Of a DNA stretch of 43,882 bases, positions 2,011-33,588 are shown one piece after another. Under the pieces are notes generated by a model that made no database searches, was not told the DNA's origin, and saw only the letters and a list, made by a program, of their open reading frames with translations. The position numbers and the translations under genes are program-made. Location: assembly GCA_024400935.1 (NCBI GenBank), contig JAKSLZ010000017.1:1-43882 (forward strand), written 5' to 3'. How positions within the stretch are numbered: position 1 is the stretch's first letter; each line of letters begins with the position of its first letter. The stretch comes from Muribaculaceae bacterium (GTDB lineage: Bacteria > Bacteroidota > Bacteroidia > Bacteroidales > Muribaculaceae).

Positions 2011-4623
2011 ATGAAGTTCAGAACCCTATTGCTCGCGTTTGTTGCTAACATATGCGCAGTAGCATATGCCGACAAGGCACAGAACATAACCAACTACATC
2101 GCTACGACCTATCCGTGCCAGGTGACCAATGTTGAAGTGGGTGCCGACAAAGTTACCATTACAGGCAACTGCCCTGCCGACGGACAGTTTGCCATCGTAG
2201 ACATCACCCCTGCCGACGATCCTACCGAAACCACAACATGGCGCACCCAAGAGCCTGTCACGGGACAGCAGTTCAGCATTACTGTCGACCGCAAGGTGAA
2301 ATATGACGGCATAGGCTATGACCGCATCTTCTCGCGCTGGGCTGTCGTGGAAACAACCACGGGTGCAACAACGCTGGCATCACATGCGCGCTATGCCGAC
2401 AAGACCCCTATCCTATCATCTCCGGCCGAGCTTGTCCCCACCACCAAGAAAGGCGTGGGCGCAGGCCTGGGACAAGTGTATATGGACGACCTCGTGGAAC
2501 TTGGAGCCAAGAACATCACCTGCAACATGGTGATGAACTGGTACATTGCCAAGTCGCCCATCTATGCCCGCAACATCGAGTATACCTACAACGGACAGAA
2601 GTATTACCTCAACGGCGATGAGATTGCATCGTGGGACTGGCACCTCAAGTTCTATGAAGACCACGGCATCGCGGTGAGCGCCATCGTGCTCATCACGCCC
2701 AACTCGGTAGATCCCGCGCTTAGCAAGGTATTCTGCCACCCCGACAACAACGGCGGTCACTACACCATGCCAAACATGACCAACATGGAGAGCATCAACG
2801 CCTATGCCGCTGTACTTGAATACTTTGCCAGCCGCTACAACGGCACCGGACACGGACGCATCAACCACTGGATCATGCACAACGAGGTGGACATGGGCTC
2901 AACATGGACCAACATGGGCACTCAGCCCGAGATGGTTTACACTAACGAGTACATGAAGTCTATGCGCCTGTGCTACAACATCGTGCGCCAGTATGACCAG
3001 CATGCGTCAATCATGGGTTCTTTCACCCACAACTGGACCACAACCAGCGGCGGCAACTTCCCCTCCAAGACGATGCTCGAGCACATGGTGGAGATGAGCA
3101 AATGCGAGAACGACTTCCTGTGGGGCGTGGCACAGCACCCCTACCCGCAGAACCTCACTCGTCCCAAGTTCTGGATTGACGACTCACAGGCCACAGGCGA
3201 CATGGACACCAAGTACATCACCTTCAAGAACCTCGAGGTGCTCAACCAGTGGATTCTCATGCCTGAGAACATGATAAACGGAAAAATCAAGCGCAAACTA
3301 TTCCTCTCAGAGAACGGAACTAACTCTCCTTCTTACAGCGAACTTGACCTCAAGAACCAGGCTGCCGGCGGAGCATGGGCATGGAAAAAGACAAAAGCAC
3401 TGCCCGGCATCGACGCCTTCATGTGGCACAACTGGATGGACAACCGCGTGGAAGACGGCTTGCGCATAGGCCTTCACTTCTATCCCGACGACGAGACTAA
3501 TCCCGGTGGAAAGAAACCCGTGTGGTATGTGTGGCAAGCAGCCGACAGCGATCAAGAAAGCGAAGTGCTTGACCCCTATCTCGAAACATTGGGCGTGAAG
3601 GAATGGAAGGAAATCTTCCTGCTCATCAAGGGCGAAGGCAACAAACTAGAAAATGGACACACCTATAACATTGAAGCCGAGGACTATGACCTGGGCGGCA
3701 AAGGCATTGCCTATGACTCACACAACACCACAGGCGGAAGCGACTACCGCGCCGACAACGACGGCGTGAACTTGACCGCTTATTCCTTACTCGAGAACGG
3801 CTGGGGAATATATGACATGGGGGGTAGCTGGCAAACCTATAACGGACGTTTCATTGACGATTCACAACACACCATCAGCCACGAGATGGCAGAAGAGAAC
3901 TGGGGTAGCTGGTTCACCTATACCATCGAAGCGCTGGAGGACGTCACTGCCAACATCTTTGTCAAGCACGCCGCACTGTGGCGCGACTATGGCAACGCAG
4001 CAGCTACAGGATGTGCTCCCGGCCCCGACACCTATATCGTGGAGGACGCCCCCGCTCTCAACTGGCCCAAGCACTATGCCGGAGCAATGGTGATTTCGCT
4101 CGACGGCGAGAACCTTTACACCACACAGGTGGCACGCCCCATTGCTCCAGACGAATACCAGAGCCGCGGCACCAATTTCAACCAAATCACCACCCACCCC
4201 GACCGCTGGACCAGCACGCTCAACGGCAAGGAGAAGACCGACACGCTGTGGGTGTGGTCTAGAGCAGGTGGCAACAACTCGCAGTCATCATTCTGTCACG
4301 ACGACCCCGACTACCGCAATATCTTTATCCCCAAGGGTAAACACGTCATCAAAGTCAAGTCAATCAGTTCGCCCTGGAACTTTGACTGTCTGCGCTTTGA
4401 CTGCTACGCTCCCACATCAGGAATAACCGCACTGGACGCCACAGCACCGGTAATCATCACCGCAGGCCACGGCTGCATCAACGTTGCAGGAGCAAATACC
4501 GACGTATCCATCTACTCGCTCAACGGCATGCTCATGGGACACACCCGTGACACGATGTCGTTGCCCGCCGGCATCTACATAGCCCGCCACGGCAGCAACG
4601 CCACCAAGGTAAAGGTGAACTGA
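2011..4623 (+). CDS. Secreted DUF5722-like putative glycoside hydrolase with CBM and T9SS tail
   Basis: An 870-aa secreted protein with a signal peptide (1-20, ending AYA). Residues about 130-530 look like a TIM-barrel hydrolase of the DUF5722 type. Two glutamates sit in clan-A-like contexts: E292 in WIMHNEVD (candidate acid/base) and E434 in LFLSENGTN (candidate nucleophile). From about residue 550 a CBM6-like module begins (IEAEDYDLGGKGIAYD, then YRADNDGVNL). The last about 50 residues (VSIYSLNGML, LPAGIYIAR, TKVKVN) are a typical type-A T9SS sorting domain, which predicts export across the outer membrane and surface attachment or release. It is monocistronic with its own -7 box, divergent from the riboswitch transcript. 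The substrate is unknown; a host or dietary polysaccharide is likely. The DUF5722 assignment is from memory of the family pattern; the CBM and tail are firmer. Confidence 0.75.
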   Translation: MKFRTLLLAFVANICAVAYADKAQNITNYIATTYPCQVTNVEVGADKVTITGNCPADGQFAIVDITPADDPTETTTWRTQEPVTGQQFSITVDRKVKYDGIGYDRIFSRWAVVETTTGATTLASHARYADKTPILSSPAELVPTTKKGVGAGLGQVYMDDLVELGAKNITCNMVMNWYIAKSPIYARNIEYTYNGQKYYLNGDEIASWDWHLKFYEDHGIAVSAIVLITPNSVDPALSKVFCHPDNNGGHYTMPNMTNMESINAYAAVLEYFASRYNGTGHGRINHWIMHNEVDMGSTWTNMGTQPEMVYTNEYMKSMRLCYNIVRQYDQHASIMGSFTHNWTTTSGGNFPSKTMLEHMVEMSKCENDFLWGVAQHPYPQNLTRPKFWIDDSQATGDMDTKYITFKNLEVLNQWILMPENMINGKIKRKLFLSENGTNSPSYSELDLKNQAAGGAWAWKKTKALPGIDAFMWHNWMDNRVEDGLRIGLHFYPDDETNPGGKKPVWYVWQAADSDQESEVLDPYLETLGVKEWKEIFLLIKGEGNKLENGHTYNIEAEDYDLGGKGIAYDSHNTTGGSDYRADNDGVNLTAYSLLENGWGIYDMGGSWQTYNGRFIDDSQHTISHEMAEENWGSWFTYTIEALEDVTANIFVKHAALWRDYGNAAATGCAPGPDTYIVEDAPALNWPKHYAGAMVISLDGENLYTTQVARPIAPDEYQSRGTNFNQITTHPDRWTSTLNGKEKTDTLWVWSRAGGNNSQSSFCHDDPDYRNIFIPKGKHVIKVKSISSPWNFDCLRFDCYAPTSGITALDATAPVIITAGHGCINVAGANTDVSIYSLNGMLMGHTRDTMSLPAGIYIARHGSNATKVKVN

Positions 4624-5148
4624 ACAAGAGACCCCACAGAATGTAGCAAAATGCCCTTTGCCCGAGATCGGGCAATGATGTAGGGATGGCGCTCTCGTGC
4701 CGTCCTATTGCTCGTCATGTGCATTATTCTCTATGGCAAGCTGTGTTACAGCGCCCTGCGGTCGCTACGAACGACACGGGGGTGTCGTCCCTGCTGCCCA
4801 TGACCTGATAAATTGATTTTTGCGATACCTGCGCCGTTTATTCTCGCATCATGACACACCCCCACCTGCTGCCCATGACCTGGGCAAAACGTTGTTATAG
4901 ACTTTTTGCAACACCTCCTTTTTTTACTTCAATTTGAATCGTATTCTTCTTTTACCGGACAGCAATAATTGTAAAAAAAGCTCTAAAAGGGAGTAAAATT
5001 GCAAAAAATGGAGCTTATTTACAAAAAATTGCAAAAAATATTCCTAAATCCACAACAGCGAAAGAAACCGTTAGATATAACTTTGTGGCAAATAAAACAA
5101 TTCACAAAATTATTCATATAATAATTATATATTCTCTGAAAAAAACAG
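4624..5148. other. Non-coding spacer with short direct repeats and hairpins
   Basis: I see no gene in this stretch. It holds a perfect inverted repeat ACGACAC/GTGTCGT (about 4771-4787), which may terminate the 870-aa gene. CTGCTGCCCATGACCTG occurs twice (4791-4807 and 4866-4882). Further on is an A-rich tract in which AAAATTGCAAAAAAT occurs twice (about 4996-5010 and 5024-5038), just before the NRPS-locus promoter. The first half is much more GC-rich than the second, suggesting remnants of dispersed repeats next to an AT-rich promoter region. Confidence 0.5.
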
Positions 5149-5156
5149 TAACTTTG
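5149..5156 (+). promoter_or_regulatory. -7 box of the STAS-NRPS operon
   Basis: TAACTTTG lies 48 nt upstream of the STAS start codon in a strongly AT-rich region. The -33 region (about 5125) reads TTAT rather than TTTG, so an activator or alternative sigma factor is possible. No other promoter was seen before the NRPS, so it probably drives both genes. Confidence 0.55.
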
Positions 5157-5204: not shown

Positions 5205-5507
5205 ATGAATATCGAAGTAACAAAAAACGGTGACATGGCCCAAGTGGTACTCACTGGAAGTCTTGACACAGTAGCAGCTACTCAAGCAATGGAACAGTTT
5301 CAAAACATAGTTCATGGCGAGGTGACTAACGTGACCATCGACTGCACCGGTGTGGACTATATAGCCAGTTCAGGCCTACGCCTGCTGCTGATGGTGCGCA
5401 AAGCATGCAAGGCTGCTGGTGGCGAGACCACGCTCACAGGCGTACAGACTAACGTGATGGAAGTTCTCACCATCACCCATTTCGACAAATTATTCAATAT
5501 CATCTAA
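5205..5507 (+). CDS. STAS-domain anti-sigma factor antagonist (SpoIIAA/RsbV-like)
   Basis: A 100-aa single-domain STAS protein, the usual length for SpoIIAA/RsbV. It shows the family pattern: an N-terminal strand with a GSLDT turn (residues 19-23), VTIDCTGVDYI, then SSG at 55-57 and the helix LRLLLMVRKACKAAGG. The serine of SSG is the position phosphorylated by RsbW-type kinases and dephosphorylated by RsbU/SpoIIE phosphatases, so the switch residue is present. It is 13 nt upstream of the NRPS and almost certainly co-transcribed. The PP2C phosphatase at 12282-13952 is the obvious candidate to dephosphorylate it. No RsbW-like kinase is encoded in the window, so the partner must lie elsewhere, or the STAS protein contacts the NRPS or another protein directly (inference). 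Confidence 0.93.
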   Translation: MNIEVTKNGDMAQVVLTGSLDTVAATQAMEQFQNIVHGEVTNVTIDCTGVDYIASSGLRLLLMVRKACKAAGGETTLTGVQTNVMEVLTITHFDKLFNII

Positions 5508-5520
5508 AGACTTACTAACA

Positions 5521-8500
5521 GTGAATACAGACATAAAAACCTGGTATGAAACCAAAGTGGGTGCAGCAACCGAAGTAAATTCAGCGCCCATAGCCGACGT
5601 ATATGACGGCACAGCATCAGCTTTAAGGCGTGCCGTACACATCATTCCCGAGAGTTCAAAACAGGCTGATCAGGCACACATGGTGACTGCACTGGCCTAT
5701 GCACTTGCAACCTTCACTGCCGACGAGGAATCTCTGCTGGCAACCACCGTTGACGGCCGCCTGGTACCCGTGTACTGCAACATGCAGGAGACACATGATA
5801 TCGCCAAGCTGGTAGCTACAACACGGGAAACCCTTGACGGCATGCTACAGCACGTAGCCCCCTACGACGAGATAACAACCGAGCTTGGTATCTCTCCCCA
5901 AGTGGCCCTGCTACTCGAAGAGGTCGAAGTACCTGCCGAAGTCAAAATAGCTATCCATGTAGCCGACGGCAAGCTGGCAGTGGAATGGGATGCTGCACTT
6001 CACAGCGAGGCTATCATCAATCAGTTTATAGACTGTTTCCTCACCGTCATGGACGAGTTTAACACACGCTCTGAACTCAAGGACGTTATCCTCACCACGG
6101 CCGGGCAGCGCGCACAGCTTGACTCGTTCAACGCAGGCACGCTCAACACCACCGTCGATGATGGCGAGACCATCGTTTCCCTGTTCAAGAAAACAGTTAC
6201 CCAATATCCCGACAACGTGGCAGTGGTATTCGGCGACAAGCGCATCACCTACCGCGAGCTCGACGAGATGACCGACCGCATAGCATCTCACATCACAGCC
6301 CCCGTGGTAAGCATTATCATAGGCCGCAGCGAGAACATGATTGTTTGTGCCCTGGCAGCCACCAAGGCCGGAGCCGTATATCAGCCACTCGACCCGAGTT
6401 ATCCACAGGAGCGACTCAACTTCATGGTTAAGGACAGCAAAGCAACCCTGCTCATCGCTGACCGCAACCTGCGTGAGCTTGTAAACGAGTTTGAAGGCGA
6501 GGTCATGTTCACCGACGAGTTTGCCGGCATGACACTCAACGAAAACACCCCTCAACACGACATCAAGCCCGAGGATGCCTTCATCCTGCTCTATACTTCA
6601 GGTTCTACCGGCGTGCCCAAGGGAGTAATACTTGAGCACCGCAACATTGTGACATTCTGTAACTTCTATCGCCGTTACATGCAACTCGACCCTGACAGTC
6701 GCCTGTCAGCTTACGCATCGTTTGGCTTTGATGCTAACATGATGGACACCTACCCCGCCCTTAGCGCAGGCTCGTCAGTTTATATCATCCCCGAGGACAT
6801 GCGCCTCAACCTTGACGAGATCAACGACTACTTTGCTGCCAACGGCGTCACACACGCATTCTTCACCACACAAGTGGGCCAGCAATTCTGCATCGCTTAT
6901 CCCGAGCACCCCACACTCAAGCATGTGTCGATGGGTGGCGAGAAGATGGCAAGCATCGAGCCCCCTGTGAATTACAAGATGCACAATCTGTATGGTCCCA
7001 CCGAGTGTACTATCTTTGTCACCATCTGTAAAGTAGAAAAGAAAGAGCCCAACATCCCCATCGGCCCCAGCAACGACACTGCACCCTGTACCATCGTCAA
7101 CAAGTATGGCCAGCAGGTTCCTGCCGGAGCAGCAGGCGAGCTCATCATCCACGGAGCCCAGGTGGGCCGTGGTTACCTCAACCGTCCCGAGAAGACCGCC
7201 GAGGTCTTTGGTGTATTTGGCCCCAACTCTTACCGCACCGGCGACATTGTGCGCTACCGCGAGGACAGCAAGATCGAGTTCGTGGGACGCAAGGACGGCC
7301 AGGTGAAGATACGCGGTTTCAGAGTTGAGCTCAAGGAGGTCGAGGCAATCGTGCGCGAGTATCCCGGTATCAAAGACGCAACCATACAGGCATTTGACCT
7401 CGAGAGCGGCGGCAAGTATATCGCAGCTTACATCGTGAGCGATGAGCAAGTCGACATCAACGCTCTCAACAACTTCATCTTGGAGCAAAAGCCCCCCTAC
7501 ATGGTTCCCGCAGTAACAATGCAGATCGACGCGATACCCCTTAACGTGAACCAAAAAGTGGACAAGAAGAAACTGCCCAAGCCCAGCGACGTGCAGGCAC
7601 AAGACACCATCGCCGACGAAGCACCCCACGCACTCAATGTGCTGGAACAGCGCTTAGTGGACATCGTGGGCAAGCTGGTGGGCAACACATCCATCCCCGT
7701 TGCCACACCGCTCAAGCTGTGCGGCCTGTCGTCAATCCTGGCAATGCGACTCGCTGTCATGCTCAAGAAGCAGTTTGCACTGACAATGACCAGCAAGGAG
7801 ATACTTGCAGGAGCTTCGATACTCGACATCGAGAACGCTATCATGGACCAACTGCTCAGCGGCGGCATGACTGCCAAAGAAAACAAGGCCGAGGAGCCTG
7901 CAGCAAATGTGACATGCACTCCGCTCACCTATGCACAGCAAGGTGTATACATCGACTGCCTGCGCAATGCCGACACTACGCTTTATAACATACCTGTGGA
8001 GCTTGACTTCCCCGAGGGCACTGACCCCGACAGCATCATAGCCGCAATTAAAGCCACTGTTGAGGCTCACCCCAGCTTGTCATTTACATTTGACTCAATA
8101 GACGGCATCCCCAGCCAGATATTCACTCCGTTTGACCTCAACATTGAGCCCAAGAATATCGAGAACAGCAACTGGGAAACATTTAAGCAAGACTTCATAC
8201 GTCCGTTTGACCTCAAGGAAGGTCCTCTTGCACGTTTTGAGGTAGCGACCTGCGACGACCAGGTGCGCCTGCTCTTTGACATACACCACCTCGTGGCCGA
8301 CGGCATGTCGATAGACCTCTTCATCAACGATTTGCTCAAGAGCATCGAAGGAGGCGAAGTCGAGGCCGAAGGTATGACCTACCTGCAGTATGCACTCAAG
8401 CAGAAGGCCGATGAGCAAACTCCGGCATTTGCCCAAAGCAAAGCATTCTTTGCCGAGCAACTCAAGGACTTCCAGAACAGCACCGAGATACCTGCCGACA

Positions 8501-11500
8501 AGAACGGAGAGGCTTCTGACGGCAACCTTGCAGGCGTAACAGTTCCCGTCAACTTTGAGGCTGTAAACCAATACGCCACACGATTGGGAGTAACACCCGC
8601 AGCCGTATTCCTTGCAGCAACCTACTACACCGCTGCCCGTTTCACCAATAGCAAGCAGGTTTACCTGGGCACGATTTCAAACGGCCGCAGCAACCTCGAC
8701 ATCTCCAACACGACAGGTATGTTTGTGGGCACCTTACCACTGGCAAGCCTCATAGGCGACCAGAAGGTGGACGAGTATGTCAAGCAGTGTGGCGAAAACT
8801 TCGCACTCACACTGGAGAACGAGAATTATCCGTTCCTGCAGATCTCGGCCGACTACGGCTTCTCGCCCAACCTCATGTATGAGTACCAGCGCGGAGTCCT
8901 CGAGGAGTATCTGCTCAACGGCAAAAAGGTGGAGCAACAATTACTCTCGCTCGACAAGCCCCGCTTCAAGACAACAGTCAAGATCGAAGACGAAGGCGTT
9001 AGAGTGGAATACAACGACGCATTCTACAACGAGACCACTATGCTCAGGCTGGCACAGTGCATCAGCACCGTAGCCGAACGCTTTGCCGCTAATACCGGTA
9101 CACCCGTTAAGAACACGAGTATCCTCACTGCCGAACAGGATGCCGAGCTGCAATCGCTGCGCCACACATGCATGGACGACAACGCCATCAGCTTCAACCT
9201 ATTCCACGAGAGCGTTGAGCACTGGGCACAGGAGACACCTGATGCAACAGCACTTATTGCAACAAACGAGACTCTCACCTACAAGCAGTTTAACGAGAAG
9301 GCTAACCTGCTGGCTCACGCACTGATAAGCCGTGGAGTTGAAGCCCACGACCGCGTGTGCCTGTTGCTGCCGCGCCGCAGCTGGCACATGATTGCCATGT
9401 TCGGTGTGATGAAAGCCGGAGCTGCCTATATACCTTGCGACCCCGAGTATCCCGCTGAGCGCATCAACCTTATCACAGACGACAGCCATGCCAAGTTTGT
9501 CATCACAACCAAGGACAAGATGGAGCCCTACGGAGAACGCGCGCTTGACGTTGAAGCATTGCTTGCCGAGGACCATCCCGTCAGCAATCCTGGCGTCAAG
9601 ATCGACTCGTCATCTCTGGCCTACCTCATTTACACCTCAGGTTCAACAGGTCGTCCCAAGGGCGTGATGCTGCACCACCGCGGCATATGCAACTATCTCA
9701 CACCGCACCCCGAGAACCGCCACATCTATGCATTTGTCAATGAGTGCAAAGCAATGATGGGTATCACGACAGTTTCATTTGACCTCTCGCTCAAGGAGCT
9801 GGGCGCTACGCTCTACAACGGCAAAACACTTGTGCTGGCCAACGAGCAGGAAATCATGGATCCGCAGATGCTCGCTGATCTGTATAACCGCACCGGTTGC
9901 GACGGCTTCAACGGCACTCCGTCACGTCTCAAGACATTCCTTGAGCTACCTGCATTCCAGGAGGTTGTGAGCCGCCTCAAGGTCATCATCCTGGGTGGTG
10001 AGAAGTATCCGGCAACACTGCTGCCTCAACTGCGCGAAATAAGCAAGGCACGCCTGTTCAACACTTATGGTCCCACTGAAATCACAGTGAGCAGTAACGT
10101 GGGAGAACTCACTAACAGCGAAGCAGTTACCGTAGGTCCTCCCTTGCTCAACTATCATGAGTATGTGGTAGACAACGACCTCAACGAGCTCCCCGTGGGC
10201 GTCGTGGGCGAACTCCTCATTGGCGGTTTAGCTGTGGGTAAGGGTTACAACGACCTGCCCGAGAAAACTGCCGAGGCTTTCATCGAGTACAACGGCATGC
10301 GCTGCTACAAGAGCGGTGACTACGCACGCTGGAATCCCGACGGACAGGTAGTGATCCTGGGCCGCAAGGACCACCAGATCAAGCTCAACGGTCTGCGCAT
10401 CGAACTCGGTGAGGTTGAGACCGTACTCAACAAACAGCCACAGGTCAAGGAAGGCGTGGTGATGATCAAGAACCTCGAAGGACACGATCACCTCGTTGCT
10501 TACTTTACATCGCCCGAGGCCGACACTGACACTACCGTGCTTAAGCAACAGATGGGCAAGAGCCTCACCCACTACATGGTTCCCACCATCTTTGTCCAAC
10601 TCGACAAGATGCCCATCTCGCCCAACGGCAAGACCGACCTCAAGGCACTCCCCGAGCCGTCACTGGGCGACCGAGAATACGTTGAACCCGCCAATGACCT
10701 GGAACGCTTCTTCTGCGACACGTTTGCTTCAGTGCTCGAGCGCGAACAAGTAGGTGCCACCGACAATTTCTTCGAGATAGGCGGTACTTCACTCGTGGCA
10801 ATACGCATCGTGATGGCCGCAATGCAGGCGGGACACAAAATTGTATACAAAAACGTCTTTGACTGTCCCACTCCGCGCGCACTGGCTACATTGCTGGGCG
10901 CAGAGGCTCCCGCCGATGCTACTGCTCCCAAGAAGAAAGCAGCCGAAGCTACTCCCGGTGTTATCGAGAACAACGACGATCCCGAGGCAAGCAACTATGA
11001 CTACACTCGCATCAACGAGGTGCTGAGTCACAACAATGCCGAAAACTTCAAGATGGGCGAGCTGAGAGCTCTGGGCACCTGCATCGTGACCGGTGCAACA
11101 GGATTCCTGGGCATCCATGTAGTCAAGGAACTCATCGAGCGCGATGATGTTGACGCCATCTACTGCATGGTGCGCAGCAACAAGCGCCAAACAGCCGACA
11201 GCCGACTGCGCACACAGTTGTTCTACTACTTTGGCAACACCTACGCCGAGCTTATGGGAACACGTGTCCACATCATCGACGGCGACGTCACCAAGCCCGA
11301 GTGCCTCGACGTGGTTCCCGTTAACGACATCAAGGGCAACATCACCGTGATCAACTGTGCGGCTAACGTGAAACACTTCTCGGCAGGTACCGACATCGAA
11401 GACATCAACATAGGCGGATGCCAAACTTGCATAGAATTCTGTCTCAAGCATGGAGCACGCTTCATCCAGACATCTACCCACAGCATCGCCGGTAACACAG

Positions 11501-12198
11501 TGAGCGACATCCCCGGCCAGTCGCACATCCTCACCGAGGATCAACTCTACTGGGGACAGGAACTCAACAACCAGTACACCCACTCTAAATTCATAGCCGA
11601 GCGCAACGTGCTCGAGGCCGTGGCCGAGCGAGGACTGGACGGTAAGATCGTTCGCCTGGGTAACCTGAGCGCACGCAGCACCGATGGTGAATTCCAGATC
11701 AACTTCACCAGCAACTCATTCATGGGTCGATTGCGCGCACTGCAAACTGTGGGATGCATGCCTTACTCAATGTGCTCAGGCACTGTGGAGTTCTCGCCCA
11801 TCAACGAGGTAGCTCGTGCCGTGGTACTCCTGGCAACACTGCCCAGCGAATACACAGTGTTCCACCCCGTGTGTGCACAGCGTCAGTTGTTTGACAACGT
11901 CATCGTGTGCCTCAACCGCCTGGGCATCAACATCAAGACCGTTGAGGATAGCGTCTATCAGCAAGCCCTCATGGATGCGATGAACGATCCTACCAAGGCT
12001 CCCATCCTGCAGAGTCTCATGGCATATGATGCCAGCGGCGACAAGTATGTGGTTGAGAATAGCGACAACAACAGCTACACCTTCCAGGTGCTCATCAGGC
12101 TGGGATTCCGCTGGAACTTCACCACATGGGACTACATGGAACAGTTCATCAAGGCAATCCAGGAACTCGGATTCTTTGATGACGACTACCAACGTTAA
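5521..12198 (+). CDS. Dimodular NRPS with terminal reductase (remnant C-A-T-C-A-T-R)
   Basis: 2225 aa, GTG start 13 nt after the STAS stop. Domains by residue: 1-215, a shrunken condensation-like region without HHxxxDG; A1 about 220-715 with YTSGSTGVPKG at 358-368; T1 with the likely phosphopantetheine serine S738 in CGLSSI; C about 800-1225 with intact HHLVADG at 922-928; A2 about 1240-1725 with YTSGSTGRPKG at 1371-1381; T2 with S1757 in EIGGTSL; and a thioester reductase with TGATGFLG at 1857-1864 and Y2019-x3-K2023. Both A domains keep the substrate-anchoring Asp (FDA, FDL), so two alpha-amino acids are expected; the side chains cannot be assigned. With no thioesterase, the reductase should release an aldehyde, an alcohol or a product that cyclises to a pyrazinone. 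This architecture resembles gut NRPSs known to make dipeptide aldehydes and pyrazinones. No PPTase is encoded in the window. Confidence 0.95.
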   Translation: MNTDIKTWYETKVGAATEVNSAPIADVYDGTASALRRAVHIIPESSKQADQAHMVTALAYALATFTADEESLLATTVDGRLVPVYCNMQETHDIAKLVATTRETLDGMLQHVAPYDEITTELGISPQVALLLEEVEVPAEVKIAIHVADGKLAVEWDAALHSEAIINQFIDCFLTVMDEFNTRSELKDVILTTAGQRAQLDSFNAGTLNTTVDDGETIVSLFKKTVTQYPDNVAVVFGDKRITYRELDEMTDRIASHITAPVVSIIIGRSENMIVCALAATKAGAVYQPLDPSYPQERLNFMVKDSKATLLIADRNLRELVNEFEGEVMFTDEFAGMTLNENTPQHDIKPEDAFILLYTSGSTGVPKGVILEHRNIVTFCNFYRRYMQLDPDSRLSAYASFGFDANMMDTYPALSAGSSVYIIPEDMRLNLDEINDYFAANGVTHAFFTTQVGQQFCIAYPEHPTLKHVSMGGEKMASIEPPVNYKMHNLYGPTECTIFVTICKVEKKEPNIPIGPSNDTAPCTIVNKYGQQVPAGAAGELIIHGAQVGRGYLNRPEKTAEVFGVFGPNSYRTGDIVRYREDSKIEFVGRKDGQVKIRGFRVELKEVEAIVREYPGIKDATIQAFDLESGGKYIAAYIVSDEQVDINALNNFILEQKPPYMVPAVTMQIDAIPLNVNQKVDKKKLPKPSDVQAQDTIADEAPHALNVLEQRLVDIVGKLVGNTSIPVATPLKLCGLSSILAMRLAVMLKKQFALTMTSKEILAGASILDIENAIMDQLLSGGMTAKENKAEEPAANVTCTPLTYAQQGVYIDCLRNADTTLYNIPVELDFPEGTDPDSIIAAIKATVEAHPSLSFTFDSIDGIPSQIFTPFDLNIEPKNIENSNWETFKQDFIRPFDLKEGPLARFEVATCDDQVRLLFDIHHLVADGMSIDLFINDLLKSIEGGEVEAEGMTYLQYALKQKADEQTPAFAQSKAFFAEQLKDFQNSTEIPADKNGEASDGNLAGVTVPVNFEAVNQYATRLGVTPAAVFLAATYYTAARFTNSKQVYLGTISNGRSNLDISNTTGMFVGTLPLASLIGDQKVDEYVKQCGENFALTLENENYPFLQISADYGFSPNLMYEYQRGVLEEYLLNGKKVEQQLLSLDKPRFKTTVKIEDEGVRVEYNDAFYNETTMLRLAQCISTVAERFAANTGTPVKNTSILTAEQDAELQSLRHTCMDDNAISFNLFHESVEHWAQETPDATALIATNETLTYKQFNEKANLLAHALISRGVEAHDRVCLLLPRRSWHMIAMFGVMKAGAAYIPCDPEYPAERINLITDDSHAKFVITTKDKMEPYGERALDVEALLAEDHPVSNPGVKIDSSSLAYLIYTSGSTGRPKGVMLHHRGICNYLTPHPENRHIYAFVNECKAMMGITTVSFDLSLKELGATLYNGKTLVLANEQEIMDPQMLADLYNRTGCDGFNGTPSRLKTFLELPAFQEVVSRLKVIILGGEKYPATLLPQLREISKARLFNTYGPTEITVSSNVGELTNSEAVTVGPPLLNYHEYVVDNDLNELPVGVVGELLIGGLAVGKGYNDLPEKTAEAFIEYNGMRCYKSGDYARWNPDGQVVILGRKDHQIKLNGLRIELGEVETVLNKQPQVKEGVVMIKNLEGHDHLVAYFTSPEADTDTTVLKQQMGKSLTHYMVPTIFVQLDKMPISPNGKTDLKALPEPSLGDREYVEPANDLERFFCDTFASVLEREQVGATDNFFEIGGTSLVAIRIVMAAMQAGHKIVYKNVFDCPTPRALATLLGAEAPADATAPKKKAAEATPGVIENNDDPEASNYDYTRINEVLSHNNAENFKMGELRALGTCIVTGATGFLGIHVVKELIERDDVDAIYCMVRSNKRQTADSRLRTQLFYYFGNTYAELMGTRVHIIDGDVTKPECLDVVPVNDIKGNITVINCAANVKHFSAGTDIEDINIGGCQTCIEFCLKHGARFIQTSTHSIAGNTVSDIPGQSHILTEDQLYWGQELNNQYTHSKFIAERNVLEAVAERGLDGKIVRLGNLSARSTDGEFQINFTSNSFMGRLRALQTVGCMPYSMCSGTVEFSPINEVARAVVLLATLPSEYTVFHPVCAQRQLFDNVIVCLNRLGINIKTVEDSVYQQALMDAMNDPTKAPILQSLMAYDASGDKYVVENSDNNSYTFQVLIRLGFRWNFTTWDYMEQFIKAIQELGFFDDDYQR

Positions 12199-12223
12199 TA
12201 ACAACATTTAATCATCCCCCCAG

Positions 12224-12254
12224 TGCCTCCCGCCCTCATCAGGGCGAGGAGGCA
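12224..12254 (+). terminator. Strong hairpin between NRPS and phosphatase genes
   Basis: TGCCTCC-CGCCCT pairs with AGGGCG-A-GGAGGCA around a CATC loop, giving a 13-bp stem with one bulged base. Flanking CCCC and GGGG can extend it. It starts 25 nt after the NRPS stop. The downstream sequence is only moderately U-rich (GGTTATTATT), so partial termination or mRNA 3'-end protection is as likely as full termination. Confidence 0.6.
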
Positions 12255-12281
12255 TTATGGGGTTATTATTAAGACTGCGAG

Positions 12282-13952
12282 ATGAACAGACTAACGCAAT
12301 TACTCAAAACTGCAAAATACGGGCTCGAGGCGAGGATGACGCTGCACATCGTCTCCTCGGTGGTTATTGTGTCGCTGATAATGACGGCGGTAGCGGCATC
12401 TATGTTCCACATGGAATATGAAAAAAGGCTTAACCATGAACTTGACGACACCATCGATGAAACCCAGAGGATCATCGATGAACAGTTGCTGCAGATTGAG
12501 GTAAGTGCTAATACTGCAGCCGAGTTATTCGACTATGAGGGAAACGAGAAAATCGATATCGACAGCATTCTGTTCCACTCACTTAAAGGCAACCCTGTGC
12601 AGGTAGCTTCGACTGTCATTCTCGACAAGGAGTCGAACAACAAAGAAAAGCTATATGCTGTAGTTTCTATTGACGGTATAATTGACACCCTGAACATCTC
12701 ACAACCCAAACTGAAATCAAGCGAAGACGATAGCTGGAATAATTCATTTATTAATGAAAAAAAATATTGGTCTCTTCCCTACGAATACAACTTCAAAGGA
12801 GGGAAAAAACTCGACCTGGTGACATATAGTCTTCCCATATATAACAAGAAAGGGGAAAAATGCGGCATCTACTGTTCAAGCATCACCCTGGGATGGCTCA
12901 CCAAGACGGTAATCAACTCAAAGCTATCTGACGACATTGATGTTGCTATCAAAGCCGATAACGGCAAATATCTCGTGGAGCCCGGTCCCATCGTCAAGTC
13001 CAACCGGCAGGAAGACCTCATCGTGAAGGAGCACAGCATCGACCGCCTGGGATGGAACTTCATCATTTCAACACCACGCAGCACAATCACACACTGTGTG
13101 TGGAGTGCCGTGTGGAAGATTGTTGCCTTTGCCACACTGCTCATCCTGGTGCTATGCATCTCGGTAATCTACAACGTGCGCCACATTGCGAGGCCCTATG
13201 TCCGCGAGAATGCTCTCATCGCTCAGGGCAAAGCTGCCGTTGACAAGGAACTGTCTATCGCTGCCAACCTGCAGCGCGAATTACTTCCCGAACCAGCTAA
13301 ACAAAATGACAAAGTCGAGATAAAAGCATTTCTGAAACCAGCCAAGGACATCGGCGGCGACCTCTATGACTACACCGTGCGTGACAACTCGGTATTCTTC
13401 TGCATAGGCGACGTGTCGGGCAAAGGTGTCCCTGCGTCGTTGTTCATGGCAATGACCACAGTGCTATTTCGCCACACCATCAACGAGGAACACCTCACCC
13501 AGCCCAACATCATCGCCAAGCGCATCAACGACACCCTGTCGCTTGAGAACAAGCAGTGCATGTTTGTCACCTTCTTTGTGGGACGTCTTGACCTCACAAC
13601 CGGCGAACTACAATACTGCAACGCCGGCCACAACAGCCCCGTGCTCAACGGCAAGTTCCTGCCGCAAAGCGACGGCATGCCACTGGCAATAATGCAGGAG
13701 TCAGAATATGAAAATGAGACCATCAACTTAGAGCATGGCAGCACACTACTGCTCTACACTGACGGTGTAACCGAGGCAACCGATACAAGAGGCAGCTTTT
13801 ATGGCGACAACAAATTGCTGGAACTACTAAAGCAAAAGAGCCACGCATCGGCCAAGGACACATTGCAAACCGTGGCACACTCGGTCGACCAGTTTGCCAC
13901 AGGTGCTACACAGCACGACGACATCACATTACTATCTATTCATTTCAAATAA
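12282..13952 (+). CDS. Membrane-anchored PP2C/SpoIIE (RsbU-like) serine phosphatase with extracytoplasmic sensor
   Basis: A 556-aa phosphatase. TM1 spans about 20-41 and TM2 about 272-295. The roughly 230 residues between them lie outside the membrane and look like a dCache-type sensor (charged helix, then beta-rich). A short linker helix (ENALIAQGKAAVDKELSIA) leads into the catalytic domain (about 325-556). The metal-binding motifs are intact: GGDLYDY at 358-364, GDVSGKGVPASLFM at 376-389, CNAGHNSP, and the C-terminal LLYTDGVTEA and QHDDIT. The family dephosphorylates STAS proteins in partner-switching cascades, and the STAS gene at 5205-5507 is the obvious substrate. It lies 83 bp after the NRPS behind a strong hairpin and 17 bp before the beta-barrel gene. 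The signal sensed is unknown; product feedback is one possibility (inference). Confidence 0.92.
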   Translation: MNRLTQLLKTAKYGLEARMTLHIVSSVVIVSLIMTAVAASMFHMEYEKRLNHELDDTIDETQRIIDEQLLQIEVSANTAAELFDYEGNEKIDIDSILFHSLKGNPVQVASTVILDKESNNKEKLYAVVSIDGIIDTLNISQPKLKSSEDDSWNNSFINEKKYWSLPYEYNFKGGKKLDLVTYSLPIYNKKGEKCGIYCSSITLGWLTKTVINSKLSDDIDVAIKADNGKYLVEPGPIVKSNRQEDLIVKEHSIDRLGWNFIISTPRSTITHCVWSAVWKIVAFATLLILVLCISVIYNVRHIARPYVRENALIAQGKAAVDKELSIAANLQRELLPEPAKQNDKVEIKAFLKPAKDIGGDLYDYTVRDNSVFFCIGDVSGKGVPASLFMAMTTVLFRHTINEEHLTQPNIIAKRINDTLSLENKQCMFVTFFVGRLDLTTGELQYCNAGHNSPVLNGKFLPQSDGMPLAIMQESEYENETINLEHGSTLLLYTDGVTEATDTRGSFYGDNKLLELLKQKSHASAKDTLQTVAHSVDQFATGATQHDDITLLSIHFK

Positions 13953-13969
13953 TTAGATAACTTATCATT

Positions 13970-15970
13970 ATGAGGAAAGCAACGGTACTGGCCATACTGG
14001 CATTGGCGCTAAGCTCAGGCAACATCTGCGCTACAACACACGAGCGTGTAGTTGAAGTGGCAGGCACTTCATTACAGCACATGCACACAGCATTTGATGT
14101 GCTAACCCATGTCCCTGGTGTGACATATGCCAACGAGGTTTTCCATGTAACAGCTTACGGCAAACCCGATATTTACATAGGGCAACGCAAACTCAACAAC
14201 TACAACGAACTCAAGCAGATGCCCGCTAACTATGTGAAGAATGTCAAGGTGATCACATCACCAGGCGCACAGTATGGCAAAAATGTGCAAGCAGTGATGG
14301 TAATAGAACTTATCGACGAGCAGGCCGAGCGATTGAGCCTCAACAACAACCTCGGCTTCACTATGAGCCATTTCTTCGCCCCTAGCGACGAACTCACTCT
14401 CACCTACAAACGCAGCACCTATAGCCTGGGAGCAATGGTAGGAATCACTGAAGAGCGAAGTCGCACACATGAAGAATCTTTTACTAACAGCTACGACAAG
14501 ACACCCACAGGTTACAAACTATACAGCAGGCAACATGAGCTAGATAATCCCTATAAGCATGCACAGACGCTCTCGGGAAAGCTCTTCGCCGAATACCTGT
14601 TCAGCCCTGACCACAAGCTCGCATTCCACTATTATATTGACTGGAAACGACGCAACGACAACAACAAATACTATGATATCACTAACACCTATGACGCTAA
14701 CGAGCAAGGCGTCATCGTGCAGGATACTCCCACCACGAGCGACTCAGTGATGTCATTTCAAACTGGTGCCGTGAGACGCAACGAGCTCAACTTTGAGTAC
14801 ACAGGAAAAGTGGGCAAGGTATCGCTCTATGCAGGTAATAACACTACATGGAACACAACATTCTCAAACACCAGCAAATATCACGTGGTGAATTTGGAGC
14901 AAGGAACACAATTCTCGCAAACAACCGAACCCAAAAGCGAAACTCTGTCTCGAAGCTACCTTGCAGCTTCGCTACCACTGGGACACGGCACCGTGAGCGC
15001 GGGTAGTGAACTGACACTGCGCAACACCGACATTAAGTTTGACGACTCAATGCAAAAGCGCGACTGCACACATGGCGACATCAACGAGGACAACTATGCA
15101 GTCTATGCCCAAGCACAACAGACCTTTGGCAACTGGACAGTGGCAGCCGGCGTGCGCTATGAGATGTCTAAATTCAGCTACAAAGCACAAGATGACGACG
15201 ACGGTGCTCGCCTAGTATTTCCCCAGGGATTCAAGTTTAACCGCGATTATGACCACGTCTACCCCAATGCTATGGTTGCCTATACAATGGGTGACAACAA
15301 GTTCACCCTGTCATACGACCGCAGTTACAACCGCTTCAACATGGCTAATATACGCATTCGCATCATGCCTTCGTTCACTATTGAGAACTATATGCTACAC
15401 ACCGAGCGCATTAGCACCACTACGCTGTCATGGGCCCGTAAATGGATGAGCGCCAGCATCAACTACCGTCATTACGACGATCCGTTGTGCCACACTACCA
15501 GCGGCAGCGTTGACTACAACGGCAACAGCTATGATGCCCTTGATGTCAACCTAAACCTGTCACCCACAGTGGGATTGTGGACACCCGCGTTTACCGCCAA
15601 CCTCCACAAGCAATGGTTTGAAATGCTCATGAGCAACGGCAACACAAAGCTCAATACCCCCATGCTCACCATGCAGCTCAACAACACGTTCGCTCTGCCG
15701 CAAGGATGGTTCCTCCATGTTAACGGCAACTGGCACAGCAAGGGATATGACCGCAATGTGAGATATTACTCTAACAACTTCCAGCTTGACGCATCGGTAC
15801 AAAAGAACTTCCTGGACAACAAACTCTCGGTAGAGTTTATCGGAACAAATCTACTGAGAAACTCATGGGATGACGTGACAATCTATACCGACCACACAAA
15901 CGGAGCTAACAAAGGCCACAAGAACCTGATTCAGCGAGTGGTAGCATTATCAATGAGATATACCCTGTAA
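13970..15970 (+). CDS. Plug-containing outer-membrane beta-barrel protein (TonB-receptor-like)
   Basis: A 666-aa protein with a signal peptide (1-22, ending ICAT). Residues about 28-120 resemble a TonB plug (FDVLTHVPGVTY, YIGQRKLNNYNELKQMPAN, VKVITSPGAQYGKN). The rest is alternating aromatic/polar beta strands ending in a strand with a C-terminal leucine (VVALSMRYTL), as in the outer-membrane beta-barrel family 3 of Bacteroidetes. The N-terminal carboxypeptidase-regulatory-like domain common in that family is absent, and there is no SusD partner. It starts 17 bp after the phosphatase, so the two are likely co-transcribed. It could import a ligand, export the NRPS product or serve as an outer-membrane sensor input; the sequence does not decide this. 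Confidence 0.8.
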   Translation: MRKATVLAILALALSSGNICATTHERVVEVAGTSLQHMHTAFDVLTHVPGVTYANEVFHVTAYGKPDIYIGQRKLNNYNELKQMPANYVKNVKVITSPGAQYGKNVQAVMVIELIDEQAERLSLNNNLGFTMSHFFAPSDELTLTYKRSTYSLGAMVGITEERSRTHEESFTNSYDKTPTGYKLYSRQHELDNPYKHAQTLSGKLFAEYLFSPDHKLAFHYYIDWKRRNDNNKYYDITNTYDANEQGVIVQDTPTTSDSVMSFQTGAVRRNELNFEYTGKVGKVSLYAGNNTTWNTTFSNTSKYHVVNLEQGTQFSQTTEPKSETLSRSYLAASLPLGHGTVSAGSELTLRNTDIKFDDSMQKRDCTHGDINEDNYAVYAQAQQTFGNWTVAAGVRYEMSKFSYKAQDDDDGARLVFPQGFKFNRDYDHVYPNAMVAYTMGDNKFTLSYDRSYNRFNMANIRIRIMPSFTIENYMLHTERISTTTLSWARKWMSASINYRHYDDPLCHTTSGSVDYNGNSYDALDVNLNLSPTVGLWTPAFTANLHKQWFEMLMSNGNTKLNTPMLTMQLNNTFALPQGWFLHVNGNWHSKGYDRNVRYYSNNFQLDASVQKNFLDNKLSVEFIGTNLLRNSWDDVTIYTDHTNGANKGHKNLIQRVVALSMRYTL

Positions 15971-31655: not shown

Positions 31656-33536
31656 TTACTTAGAGAGGCCGAGGCGCAAGCCAAGGTAATTGCGGTTGAA
31701 GTCGGACGAACGCCAGTAGCGATTAGTCAAACGGCTACTCCACTTGCCAGTGTACCAGCACCCGCCGCGATCTATTCGGCGAGAGCCACTGTTGGGACCT
31801 GTTGGATTGACCTGTGATGTGCTGCTATAGAGACCTTCCCTATCCTGGCACCACTCCGCCACATTGCCACTCATGTCATAAATGCCAAGTTCGTTGGACG
31901 ACATTTGAGCCACAGGCTGTGTCATGCCGCCGCTGTTACCGTCATACCATGCCACGTCATCGATATTGTTACTTCCACTATACTGGTAGTGGTTGCTTTT
32001 ATTGCCACCACGGGCAGCAAATTCCCACTCGGCCTCGGAGGGGAGACGGAACTGCTCACCAGTCAACTCATTTAATTTCATAATGAATTCCTGACAGTCA
32101 TTCCATGAAACGCACTCCACAGGCAGGGCACCTCCTCTGAAATGGGATGGATTGCTGCCCATGACTGCCTGCCATAGATTTTGGGTCACCTCGGTTTTGC
32201 CAATATAATAGTCGTTTGTCAATGTAACCTCGTGAGCAGGAATTTCTCTTTCATCCGGTTTATCTTGTTCGGGAGTTGCGCCCATTTCAAATGTACCGCC
32301 CTTGACAAGAACCATATCAAACGACACGCCATTAACGTTATATTTCTTTATAGGCTCAGGTTCCTCTTGAGAGGTGTTTTCTTCAACATTTTCTATTACA
32401 TTCTCTACAACTTCACCTTCATCTTCTGCTAACGACCGTGTGTCACCTTCTCTGGCATATACCAGTATAACGGCTAATGCAACACAAACTACTCCCATCA
32501 GAGCCCACAGCCATGCATTGTTTTCCTTCTTCACCGGCTGCGTTGTTTTCCTGACTTTTTCTCTTTCCTGTCGATTAACCCACATCTTTTCAATAGGTTT
32601 ATCTACCTCCACTACCGTTGCCTCTACCAGGGTGTCATCTTTCACATTACTCACAGTAGTATCGCGACTCAGGGCAGCAATGAATGCCCAGGCGGTCTTG
32701 AGGCGGTCGCGCTTGCGGCTCTTCATCGCCTGGCAGATGGCAGCGATAGCCTGCTGGCTCACTCCGCGGGCAACGAGTTGATCAACGGGGATGCCGTTGT
32801 TGTCAATAAAAGAGGCATTAGGCGGTGTGTTGCCTGTGAGTAGTTTAAAGAAAGTTGCTCCTAGGGCATAGACGTCAGTCTCGGGAGAGAATGTGCCCAC
32901 ACCGCCCAGCATGTACTGCTCTGTCGGTGCATACCCTTCGCTAATGCCCACAGGGGTGGAGCTGGTCTGGCCTCCTGACTTGGAGTCATACTGCTTGGCT
33001 AGGCCGAAGTCGATGAGCACGGTCTCGCCTTTCTCATTGAGCATGATGTTGCTGGGCTTCACGTCCAGATGGGTCATCTTGTGCCGGTGGATATAGTCGA
33101 GCGCCGAGGCTATCTGCTTGATGTAGCGAGTGGCGACTGGCTCAGACAGATACCCTTCTTTCTTCACCTTGTCGCTGAGCGATCCGCATGGGGCATACTC
33201 CATCACGTAGTAGGCAGTGCCGTTCTCCTCAAACACGTCGATAGTGCGCACAATATTGGGATGGTTGAAACGGGCAATGTTGCGGGCTTCCTTGAGGAAC
33301 TTCTCACGGTAGCGCTCCACAGTTTCTCGTGCTCCTTCGGTACCCAGCGTGACATGGCTTGAGCTCTCTTCACGGCTGCACATCTCCTTCATGAAAAACT
33401 CCTTGACGGCAACCTTGCGCATAAGGCCGCTCTGCATCGCCAGGTAGGTGATGCCGAAACCACCCTGCCCCAGCACACTCAGTATCTTGTAGCGTCCTCC
33501 CTGCAACAGAGAACCATTATTCAATGTTTGTCCCAT
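31656..33536 (-). CDS. Membrane Ser/Thr protein kinase with extracytoplasmic FGE-like domain
   Basis: 626 aa. Residues about 15-290 are a Hanks-type kinase: GQGGFG at 23-28, K45 in VAVKEF, catalytic HLDVKPSN at 156-163, DFG at 176-178 and a P+1-type GYAPTEQY. All catalytic residues are present. One TM segment (341-361) separates it from an outside domain (about 400-626) of the formylglycine-generating-enzyme/sulfatase-modifying type (GGTFEMGA, KTEVTQNLWQAVMG, LPSEAEWEFAARGG, YDMSGNVAEWC, NYLGLRL). The C-terminal catalytic cysteine pair of true FGE is not seen: GGCWYTGKWSSRLTNRYW has one displaced Cys. The outside domain therefore probably binds a ligand. The gene lies 48 bp downstream of the 954-aa secreted protein gene and may be co-transcribed. 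Substrates are unknown. Confidence 0.93.
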   Translation of the reverse strand: MGQTLNNGSLLQGGRYKILSVLGQGGFGITYLAMQSGLMRKVAVKEFFMKEMCSREESSSHVTLGTEGARETVERYREKFLKEARNIARFNHPNIVRTIDVFEENGTAYYVMEYAPCGSLSDKVKKEGYLSEPVATRYIKQIASALDYIHRHKMTHLDVKPSNIMLNEKGETVLIDFGLAKQYDSKSGGQTSSTPVGISEGYAPTEQYMLGGVGTFSPETDVYALGATFFKLLTGNTPPNASFIDNNGIPVDQLVARGVSQQAIAAICQAMKSRKRDRLKTAWAFIAALSRDTTVSNVKDDTLVEATVVEVDKPIEKMWVNRQEREKVRKTTQPVKKENNAWLWALMGVVCVALAVILVYAREGDTRSLAEDEGEVVENVIENVEENTSQEEPEPIKKYNVNGVSFDMVLVKGGTFEMGATPEQDKPDEREIPAHEVTLTNDYYIGKTEVTQNLWQAVMGSNPSHFRGGALPVECVSWNDCQEFIMKLNELTGEQFRLPSEAEWEFAARGGNKSNHYQYSGSNNIDDVAWYDGNSGGMTQPVAQMSSNELGIYDMSGNVAEWCQDREGLYSSTSQVNPTGPNSGSRRIDRGGCWYTGKWSSRLTNRYWRSSDFNRNYLGLRLGLSK

Positions 33537-33559: not shown

Positions 33560-33588
33560 CAAAAGTGTGGGCGAAACGACCTGGTCAA
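33560..33588 (-). promoter_or_regulatory. Possible promoter of the kinase gene
   Basis: On the minus strand, TTG (33588-33586) and 18 nt later CACTTTTG (33567-33560), one deviation from the -7 consensus. It overlaps the stop region of the upstream gene. Read-through from that gene is an alternative. Confidence 0.35.

Follow-up and report, generated by a model that had tools for sequence, protein, structure and literature searches.

A partner-switching module beside reductase-terminated NRPS genes of gut bacteria and archaea that may work without a sigma factor

The locus presented here lies on a 43,882-nucleotide stretch of DNA from a Muribaculaceae bacterium (the window, meaning the whole stretch analysed) and joins genes for a STAS protein, a reductase-terminated NRPS, a SpoIIE/RsbU-type phosphatase and an outer-membrane β-barrel. 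We propose, with a probability of about 0.55, that it forms one spoke of a partner-switching circuit that works without a sigma factor and is dedicated to the reductase-terminated NRPS pathway. The parts of this proposal differ in strength. Judged from sequence, a real phospho-switch that serves the NRPS pathway is highly likely, and we are almost as confident that this switch works other than through a sigma factor. That it acts directly on the NRPS or exporter, and not on another regulator, is a step that we regard as slightly more doubtful than probable.

The four genes lie on one strand in the order STAS, NRPS, phosphatase and barrel, with intergenic gaps of 13, 83 and 17 nt (Table 1); the sequence-only reading had given this arrangement and its coordinates, and both are confirmed. 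The window STAS protein matches PF01740 (67.3 bits) and TIGR00377 (above cut-off). Its Ser55 (codon 5367–5369) aligns with the SpoIIAA phosphoserine and does not vary among the 20 STAS proteins aligned. A phosphorylatable-Ser motif is present in 96 of the 97 STAS ORFs shorter than 215 aa and, judged by eye, the Ser of the 97th is kept. The 20 compared STAS proteins (96–140 aa, net charge 0 to −10) are mostly acidic and single-domain. Neither of the two scanned by Pfam, those of the window and of locus L051, has a second domain, and no NRPS–STAS fusion was found among the ORFs scanned. Upstream, TAACTTTG, a candidate −7 element of a housekeeping Bacteroidetes promoter, occurs on its own twice ahead of the STAS gene and 12 times in the window, where 1.67 copies are expected; the two-box −33/−7 Bacteroidetes pattern had no match upstream of that gene.

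Table 1 Features of the locus and their coordinates in the window.
Feature	Position	Strand	Basis
Candidate −7 element TAACTTTG	5078..5085	+	Motif count in window
Second TAACTTTG	5149..5156	+	48 nt upstream of STAS start
STAS protein, 100 aa, single domain	5205..5507	+	PF01740, TIGR00377
NRPS, 2225 aa, A-T-C-A-T-R	5521..12198	+	Pfam domains, motifs
NRPS N-terminal stretch, probable starter condensation domain remnant	5521..6165	+	Alignment to congeneric NRPSs
Condensation domain, residues 800-1210, HHxxADG at residue 922	7918..9150	+	Pfam, motif
Terminal reductase NAD_binding_4, residues 1856-2101	11086..11823	+	Pfam; TGATGF, YxxSK motifs
SpoIIE/RsbU-type phosphatase, 556 aa	12282..13952	+	PF07228, PDC sensor; no HATPase domain
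PDC sensor of phosphatase	12426-12995	+	Pfam
Phosphatase catalytic part	13383-13946	+	Pfam
Outer-membrane β-barrel protein, 666 aa, lineage-specific	13970..15970	+	PF14905

The NRPS contains two AMP-binding, two PP-binding, one condensation and one NAD_binding_4 domain, with active-site motifs present. No Pfam family, and no C domain, matched its residues 1–215. Residues ~143–205 correspond to the last part of the first C domain in NRPSs of the same genus, and the only match to residues 1–142 is in the nearest relative; the protein thus appears to begin with a starter condensation domain that has been truncated. Against the NCBIfam AusA model the protein scores 915.8 bits, below the equivalog cut-off of 2500. 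Its reductase domain and AusA-like layout suggest that the pathway probably makes a dipeptide aldehyde or a pyrazinone formed from one.

The phosphatase matches PF07228 (167.8 bits, residues 368–555) and carries a PDC sensor (34.9 bits, above cut-off). The catalytic metal-binding Asp residues are present and are invariant in 24 of 24 aligned proteins, and the chains returned by a PDB sequence search include those of SpoIIE, Cache and RsbW/SpoIIAB. In the accessible portion of PMC9540692, dCache serine phosphatases are proposed as AI-2 receptors in the rumen; because dCache_1 reaches 31.1 bits in the window protein, under its cut-off of 45, this reading was not applied. The fourth gene had been described as a plugged β-barrel. 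The barrel stands (PF14905, 106.9 bits, residues 287–664); the plug is a reading of the sequence to which no plug family matched. The barrel lies outside the conserved core, being found in 3 of 80 loci (the window, L012 and L060).

Of 49 well-flanked relatives (at least 3.5 kb on either side of the NRPS), 39 have a STAS gene no more than 3 kb from the NRPS, 33 a SpoIIE gene and 32 both. The own genome has three STAS genes in 2.84 Mb, which sets the chance expectation for STAS proximity at ~1.4%, with the relatives being non-independent; the proximity is not due to chance. STAS is missing within 3 kb in 10 and SpoIIE in 16 of the 49, and L050 and L059 have no switch part at all. In the genus, 30 genomes (own included) have the NRPS or pieces of it, with SpoIIE within 5 kb in 25 and STAS in 27; 25 of the 38 genus SpoIIE genes listed sit within 5 kb of an NRPS, and in 20 of the 30 genomes the sole SpoIIE adjoins it. 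The synteny to which the sequence-only reading had looked for support is thus widely kept. In each of the STAS, SpoIIE and NRPS trees the window and L012 group with one and the same sister clade from horse faeces (support 92, 92 and 100, respectively); the three genes thus have a common history, and their synteny is kept in Bacteroidota, Bacillota and Methanomassiliicoccaceae. The loci of that sister clade carry a MATE–HATPase, and the MATE–HATPase on contig C69 of the own genome falls in the wider horse-faeces clade (support 97). Where stretches around other NRPS kinds were read, the switch was found in 0 of 4 loci of 1434–1453-aa NRPSs, 0 of 2 order-level NRPSs and 0 of 4 giant archaeal NRPSs. 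An ABC protein cluster near the NRPS was judged to be chance, its distances scattering from 124 to 9288 nt.

The locus had also been called self-contained, which fails on the kinase: no GHKL kinase is present in the window, and the own genome has its HATPase_c_2 kinases on contigs C5 and C69 and a borderline match on C71. Both forms of fusion occur there, to a phosphatase on C5 and to a MATE exporter on C69. Contig C5 (8.6 kb, no NRPS) has a STAS gene with its own phosphatase–kinase beside a RelA-like gene; its neighbours are unlike those of the genus locus, and we do not claim it as a former NRPS home. Contig C69 carries STAS, a second NRPS and the MATE–HATPase fusion. The sequence-only reading had held that a distinct cognate STAS elsewhere in the genome, coupled with a phosphatase inactive on this one, would speak against it; of these two, other STAS genes do exist, with their own phosphatase–kinase (C5) and beside the second NRPS (C69).

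MatE is absent from the window, and NRPS, STAS, SpoIIE and MatE occur together in many relatives. A HATPase domain sits on the MATE exporter in 26 of 79 loci (Pfam-checked in L009, L021, L075 and C69). In an alignment of 26 such proteins the N-box Glu is invariant and the ATP-site Asn, Asp and Gly are at least 90% conserved; a PDB sequence search with the fusion returned mainly MATE transporters. Of 33 MATE–HATPases searched with simple motif patterns, 28 showed the N-box and 24 the G1 box, so some may be degenerate. Across the 39 loci with both phosphatase and exporter genes somewhere in the fetched stretch, the kinase domain is on the phosphatase in 23, the exporter in 12, both in 3 and neither in 1 (Fisher 1.4e-6, uncorrected for kinship); with the genus left out, the 21 remaining loci divide 6, 12, 3 and 0 (p 0.0015, likewise uncorrected). 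Action in trans is favoured by three genomes: in G014 and G034 the only STAS detected accompanies the NRPS and the only SpoIIE detected lies on a different contig, and the one SpoIIE detected in G008 is of the window type, without a kinase.

The module extends to archaea. At Methanomassiliicoccaceae reductase-NRPS loci, a phosphatase–kinase fusion lies beside 12 of 13 and a STAS gene beside 11 of 13. A search for sigma70_r2 found it in 0 of 14 archaeal genomes, 13 of them with a reductase NRPS; of 14 control genomes ten had it, each of these a bacterium. At L175, where NCBIfam named 1 of 7 flanking proteins, archaeal identity relies on a 1.66-Mb contig without sigma70. Because the 13 reductase-NRPS genomes lack a sigma-70 region, a sigma factor is ruled out as the output of the switch in archaeal owners. 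Bacterial owners do have sigma factors, and it is for archaea alone that the absence is shown; Sigma70_r3 was not found in the own genome, a weak result in an incomplete assembly in which even the housekeeping sigma was missed. As similar pairings occur in archaea without sigma factors, the switch probably controls the NRPS or its exporter by a non-sigma route.

In the mechanism that we propose, the PDC sensor of the phosphatase would take up an extracytoplasmic signal, and the phosphatase would then dephosphorylate STAS at Ser55. The phosphate would be put back by a GHKL kinase encoded elsewhere in the genome, for which the MATE-fused domain of C69 is the likeliest candidate, followed by the phosphatase–kinase of C5. 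Unphosphorylated STAS would bind a pathway protein, either the NRPS or the kinase domain of the exporter, and synthesis and export would thereby be switched together, post-translationally. Tentatively, we extend this to a general scheme of direct post-translational gating of NRPS and exporter, in which the kinase resides in the MATE protein or the sensor phosphatase, STAS acts as a shuttle between exporter and synthetase, and the module, having moved among Bacteroidota, Bacillota and archaea, functions where there is no sigma factor. Such a circuit would offer a testable account of the function of STAS and SpoIIE genes in those gut bacteria and archaea that have no apparent sigma partner, and would connect small-molecule production by gut microbes to a signal from outside. 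Export would be coupled to synthesis in an unusual way if a transporter carried its own serine kinase domain, and kinase-dead or Ser55 variants would be a handle for waking silent gut NRPS clusters.

The system may, though this is rather unlikely, have been described already, as the bacterial counterpart of a Methanobrevibacter-type arrangement reported for M. ruminantium M1, in which phosphatase and STAS control expression of an NRPS. In the available text of Leahy 2010 (PMC2812497), mru0066–mru0071 comprise an NRPS among two serine phosphatases, an anti-sigma factor antagonist and MatE, for which sensing, NRPS regulation and export were proposed, a role like the one suggested here; a further cluster holds a phosphatase, STAS, kinase and PPTase. 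That account overturns the sequence-only statement that no such small-molecule system was known. The likeness, as far as M1 can be compared by description, lies in the NRPS with serine phosphatases and a STAS-type antagonist, with MatE present there. However, control of expression was inferred for one archaeon without a test, and the same portion of the source mentions no conservation survey, kinase–exporter fusion or trans kinase. Within the accessible parts of the open-licence literature, NRPS, STAS and serine phosphatase were found together in Leahy 2010 only, and a MATE–HATPase fusion was not found. A review of STAS-only proteins (PMC8256260) lacks the words 'nonribosomal', 'efflux' and 'archaea', and the main text of a rumen BGC survey (PMC8241843) lacks 'STAS', 'anti-sigma' and 'phosphatase'. 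The NRPS–switch pairing is already described; its breadth, the exporter-fused kinase and the cross-locus wiring were not found in that literature.

Sigma-free control of transcription, with STAS or a partner acting on a DNA-binding regulator of the operon, is improbable. Its precedent, in the accessible part of PMC13373217, is CapK/CapS, where a GHKL kinase and a STAS protein govern an adjacent operon with no sigma factor; CapS, which includes a wHTH domain, represses by binding DNA. Unlike CapS, the window STAS is a STAS domain alone, without wHTH, and CapS-like DNA binding by STAS itself was rejected on this anatomy (short proteins of 96–140 aa across the 20 compared, no second domain in the two scanned by Pfam, the net charge given above). 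A LytTR response regulator does lie within 4 kb of the NRPS in three loci, all Bacillota (L042, L047 and L071), but LytTR is the only named DNA-binding family among neighbour clusters in at least 3 of 80 loci.

More improbable still is that the switch serves an outer-membrane protein or an envelope response and merely co-travels with the NRPS. Four congeners keep the switch and an outer-membrane protein gene (X) without an adjacent NRPS: G011, G015 and G023 retain phosphatase–kinase, STAS and X with no adjacent dimodular NRPS, and in G009 STAS is beside the phosphatase and X, with the NRPS alone. The switch thus outlives the NRPS in some congeners, and therefore X or something else may be its target in the genus; the C5 switch beside the RelA-like gene points the same way. 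Against this, the NRPS association extends, with differing gene order, to archaea and to phyla that lack an outer membrane, and the sole SpoIIE is beside the NRPS in two-thirds of the genus NRPS genomes (20/30). Classical partner switching, in which STAS would make an RsbW-like anti-sigma kinase release its sigma factor, which would then transcribe the operon, is equally improbable: TIGR00377 and SpoIIE are the RsbV and RsbU families and bacterial owners have sigma70 proteins, but the same module occurs in the sigma70_r2-free archaea, its kinase domain is often transporter-fused, the elements upstream of the STAS gene are of housekeeping type, and no sigma family is among the recurrent neighbour clusters with a Pfam name (seven clusters checked; those of 420 and 650 aa matched nothing, and clustering can miss distant small proteins).

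The sigma-free circuit that we prefer shares with SpoIIAA–SpoIIAB–SpoIIE and RsbV–RsbW–RsbU a STAS protein with a phospho-Ser site, a GHKL kinase and a SpoIIE phosphatase; it differs in having archaeal owners without a sigma factor, a kinase fused to phosphatase or MATE, and an NRPS as neighbour. The aureusimine synthetase AusA is a dimodular A-T-C-A-T-R enzyme with reductase release, beside which no switch is known; the window NRPS has the same domains and falls under the AusA equivalog cut-off. In Vogesella indigofera, an RsbW-like domain governs production of indigoidine, an NRPS product, through TciK/TciR, which differs in being a receiver–RsbW fusion for which the available part of PMC12826045 finds no RsbV. 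In SiaABCD of Pseudomonas aeruginosa, SiaC works by binding an enzyme, with no sigma factor (PMC8457831, in the portion available); the target there is a diguanylate cyclase, and the window phosphatase reaches 71 bits of 700 with the SiaA model.

The four genes of the window locus follow one another on the forward strand with gaps of 13, 83 and 17 nt, in order, on a contig (C50) that the window spans entirely; the genome is 2.84 Mb in size and 77% complete, and its relatives place it among Bacteroidales in or close to the genus Sodaliphilus. In the NRPS, Pfam places the condensation domain at residues 800–1210 and the reductase at residues 1856–2101. Judged from sequence, residues 1–215 look like a remnant of a starter condensation domain, which is whole in both other NRPSs scanned (loci L118 and L129). 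The nearest relative is locus L012 of Candidatus Sodaliphilus limicaballi, counted as a single record with G008:C432. Amino-acid identities to it are 60.0% (STAS), 80.0% (NRPS), 57.2% (phosphatase) and 49.5% (barrel), and the dN/dS values of 0.21 (STAS), 0.11 (NRPS) and 0.14 (barrel) indicate purifying selection on three of the four genes; the phosphatase value is not estimable owing to saturated dS.

Features of the window and of related contigs
Feature	Location	Strand	Content
STAS	5205-5507	+	Pfam STAS
NRPS	5521-12198	+	Pfam A-T-C-A-T-R
SpoIIE phosphatase	12282-13952	+	Pfam PDC sensor and SpoIIE catalytic domain
Barrel	13970-15970	+	Pfam OMP_b-brl_3
DUF5722 protein	2011-4623		upstream of the operon
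Kinase-FGE-sulfatase protein	31656-33536	-	protein kinase and FGE-sulfatase domains, fused
Adjoining gene	33585-36449	-	954 aa; no Pfam family match
Second NRPS locus (C69)	L118:78-9540		STAS, C-A-T-C-A-T-R NRPS, MATE exporter-HATPase_c_2 fusion
C5 switch	L119:2733-6603		RelA-like gene, PDC-SpoIIE-HATPase fusion, STAS, 168-aa membrane protein
G008 protein	L120:12334-15000		start like that of the DUF5722 protein
LytTR response regulator	L042:448-1176		Pfam-checked

The DUF5722 protein shows no sign of membership in the switch; its G008 counterpart lies at an equivalent place. The motif TAACTTTG, found 12 times in the window against 1.67 expected, lies no more than 150 nt before the start of a same-strand ORF in 8 of the 12 copies, and is probably the housekeeping -7 promoter element.

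A single scan of genome contigs, queried with the NRPS only, gave 104 relatives, the best of which were kept as 79 loci, and their flanks were searched with iterated profiles built from the window proteins. Within 3 kb of the NRPS, STAS was found in 49, SpoIIE in 42 and MATE in 33 of the 79 loci, and in 39, 33 and 26, respectively, of the 49 loci flanked on each side by 3.5 kb or more. STAS and SpoIIE occur jointly in 32 of these 49, bearing out the association proposed in the sequence-only reading; 10 lack STAS and 16 lack SpoIIE within that distance, and two (L050 and L059) have no switch part at all. Flanking STAS matches are mostly close to the NRPS (37 of 59 share its strand and are under 500 nt away), usually before it in Bacteroidota and often after it in Bacillota. 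Gene order varies among relatives, and the locus is thus not one frozen block. The barrel is not a core part, contrary to the sequence-only reading, and is present in 3 of 80 loci. Clusters recurring in at least three loci no more than 4 kb from the NRPS comprise the NRPS itself, SpoIIE, STAS, MATE, PPTase, outer-membrane protein gene X, the window-type barrel, a beta-lactamase-fold protein, an HI0933-like protein, chorismate synthase and a LytTR response regulator, together with two that match no family; no sigma factor is among the named clusters. The LytTR gene occurs in three Bacillota loci (L042, L047 and L071), where separate transcriptional control is possible.

Whole or in pieces, the dimodular reductase NRPS was found in 30 of 37 genomes of the genus, the window's own included, with SpoIIE within 5 kb in 25 and STAS in 27 of the 30. 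Among 38 of the 42 genus SpoIIE matches (G006, G020, G024 and G036 each have a further, weaker one that is left out), 25 adjoin the NRPS. In 23 genomes the sole SpoIIE among these 38 lies beside the NRPS, or strictly in 20, as three have a second, weaker match. The common layout is phosphatase-kinase fusion, STAS, X (Alginate_exp in L129, 28.5 bits), NRPS, MATE and then PPTase (Pfam-checked in L121). Loci of other NRPS kinds (L146–L149, L152 and L153) have a switch in none of six in the stretch read, and the dimodular NRPS of L141 (G009) has no switch gene within 19.9 kb. In L146–L149 the genus has a further type of NRPS, 1434–1453 aa long (C-A-T-R by Pfam in L146). In L194 (G011) and L193 (G023) the switch, X and PPTase are kept, and the NRPS and MATE are missing between X and PPTase, as if excised.

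The window locus had been read as self-contained. However, it holds no kinase, and the HATPase_c_2 domains of its genome lie elsewhere. That on C5 is part of a fusion protein with the genome's second SpoIIE phosphatase, adjoined by a STAS gene of its own and a RelA-like gene; that on C69 is part of a MATE exporter fusion encoded after the second NRPS and third STAS of the genome; C71 carries a borderline one. Locus L189 of G008 has the C5 gene order, but with a 144-aa kinase and no phosphatase. In the 39 loci whose fetched stretch includes both phosphatase and exporter, the phosphatase carries the kinase domain in 23, the exporter in 12, both in 3 and neither in 1 (L126, where it occupies a separate frame overlapping the phosphatase); for the 21 loci outside the genus the counts are 6, 12, 3 and 0. 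The exporter-borne domain retains its ATP-site residues across an alignment of 26 proteins, although matching by simple patterns found no N-box in 5 and no G1 box in 9 of 33. The following genomes, although drafts, point to circuits spanning loci. The sole SpoIIE found in G008 is the window-type phosphatase without kinase, and its kinase domains lie on C406 (alone, STAS adjoining) and C33 (on MATE). One STAS and one SpoIIE were found in each of G014 and G034: the STAS accompanies the NRPS, and the SpoIIE is next to X on a different contig, its far side occupied by other genes. G009 shows the opposite split, with STAS kept with the phosphatase.

Trees were built for the catalytic domain of the phosphatase (65 of 92 rows, after thinning of near-duplicates from the genus and the archaea), for STAS (74 rows of few columns) and for NRPS module 2/reductase (44 rows passing a length filter; FastTree). 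In all three, the window and L012 adjoin those present of L021, L024, L063, L064, L065 and L067 (support 92, 92 and 100, respectively), loci with a kinase-less phosphatase, STAS and a MATE-HATPase fusion in the flank. The C69 fusion falls within the wider clade of their exporters (support 97). On the simplest reading of these trees, the window phosphatase and STAS would derive from a locus whose kinase was exporter-borne. The C69-type fusion is 91% identical between the window's genome and G008 (L118 versus L145), the window STAS, phosphatase and barrel only 60, 57 and 50%.

L051 is a Methanomassiliicoccaceae contig, and its NRPS was used to search 100 genomes of that family, a sample of a larger group. 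A phosphatase-kinase adjoins the NRPS in 12 and STAS in 11 of the 13 archaeal reductase-NRPS loci read, two of which are incomplete (L156 stops 586 nt past the NRPS and L177 within the phosphatase); giant archaeal NRPS loci have a switch in none of four. Mis-binning does not explain L175, which lies on a 1.66-Mb contig. The archaeal phosphatases group among those of Bacillota, a position that suggests transfer. Sigma70 region 2 was found in none of 14 archaeal genomes (the 13 and G100, of which the giant NRPS alone was read); three bacterial genomes gave 20, 7 and 8 matches. Archaea have no sigma factors, and the target of the switch there must therefore be something else.

We take the switch to be real, dedicated to the pathway and sigma-free. 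The favoured target is the NRPS or the exporter, on which STAS would act directly: fusion of the kinase to the exporter is frequent, two of the three split genomes have kept the STAS gene with the NRPS, STAS itself consists of a lone acidic domain, and SiaC is a precedent for enzyme activation through binding (PMC8457831). Against direct action stand the lack of any STAS–NRPS fusion among the ORFs scanned, the third split genome (G009), and three genomes (G011, G015 and G023) that keep the switch and X with no adjacent dimodular NRPS, G023 having an NRPS fragment at the end of another contig.

Searches of open-licence literature turned up neither the MATE-HATPase fusion nor the switch–NRPS breadth described here. 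The arrangement itself has a precedent, contrary to what had been supposed: Leahy et al. 2010 describe a Methanobrevibacter ruminantium NRPS accompanied by serine phosphatases, an anti-sigma factor antagonist and a MatE protein, proposing sensing, expression regulation and export for the cluster (PMC2812497). RsbW/STAS-like parts are used sigma-free in CapK/CapS (PMC13373217), and Vogesella TciKR may be another such use (PMC12826045).
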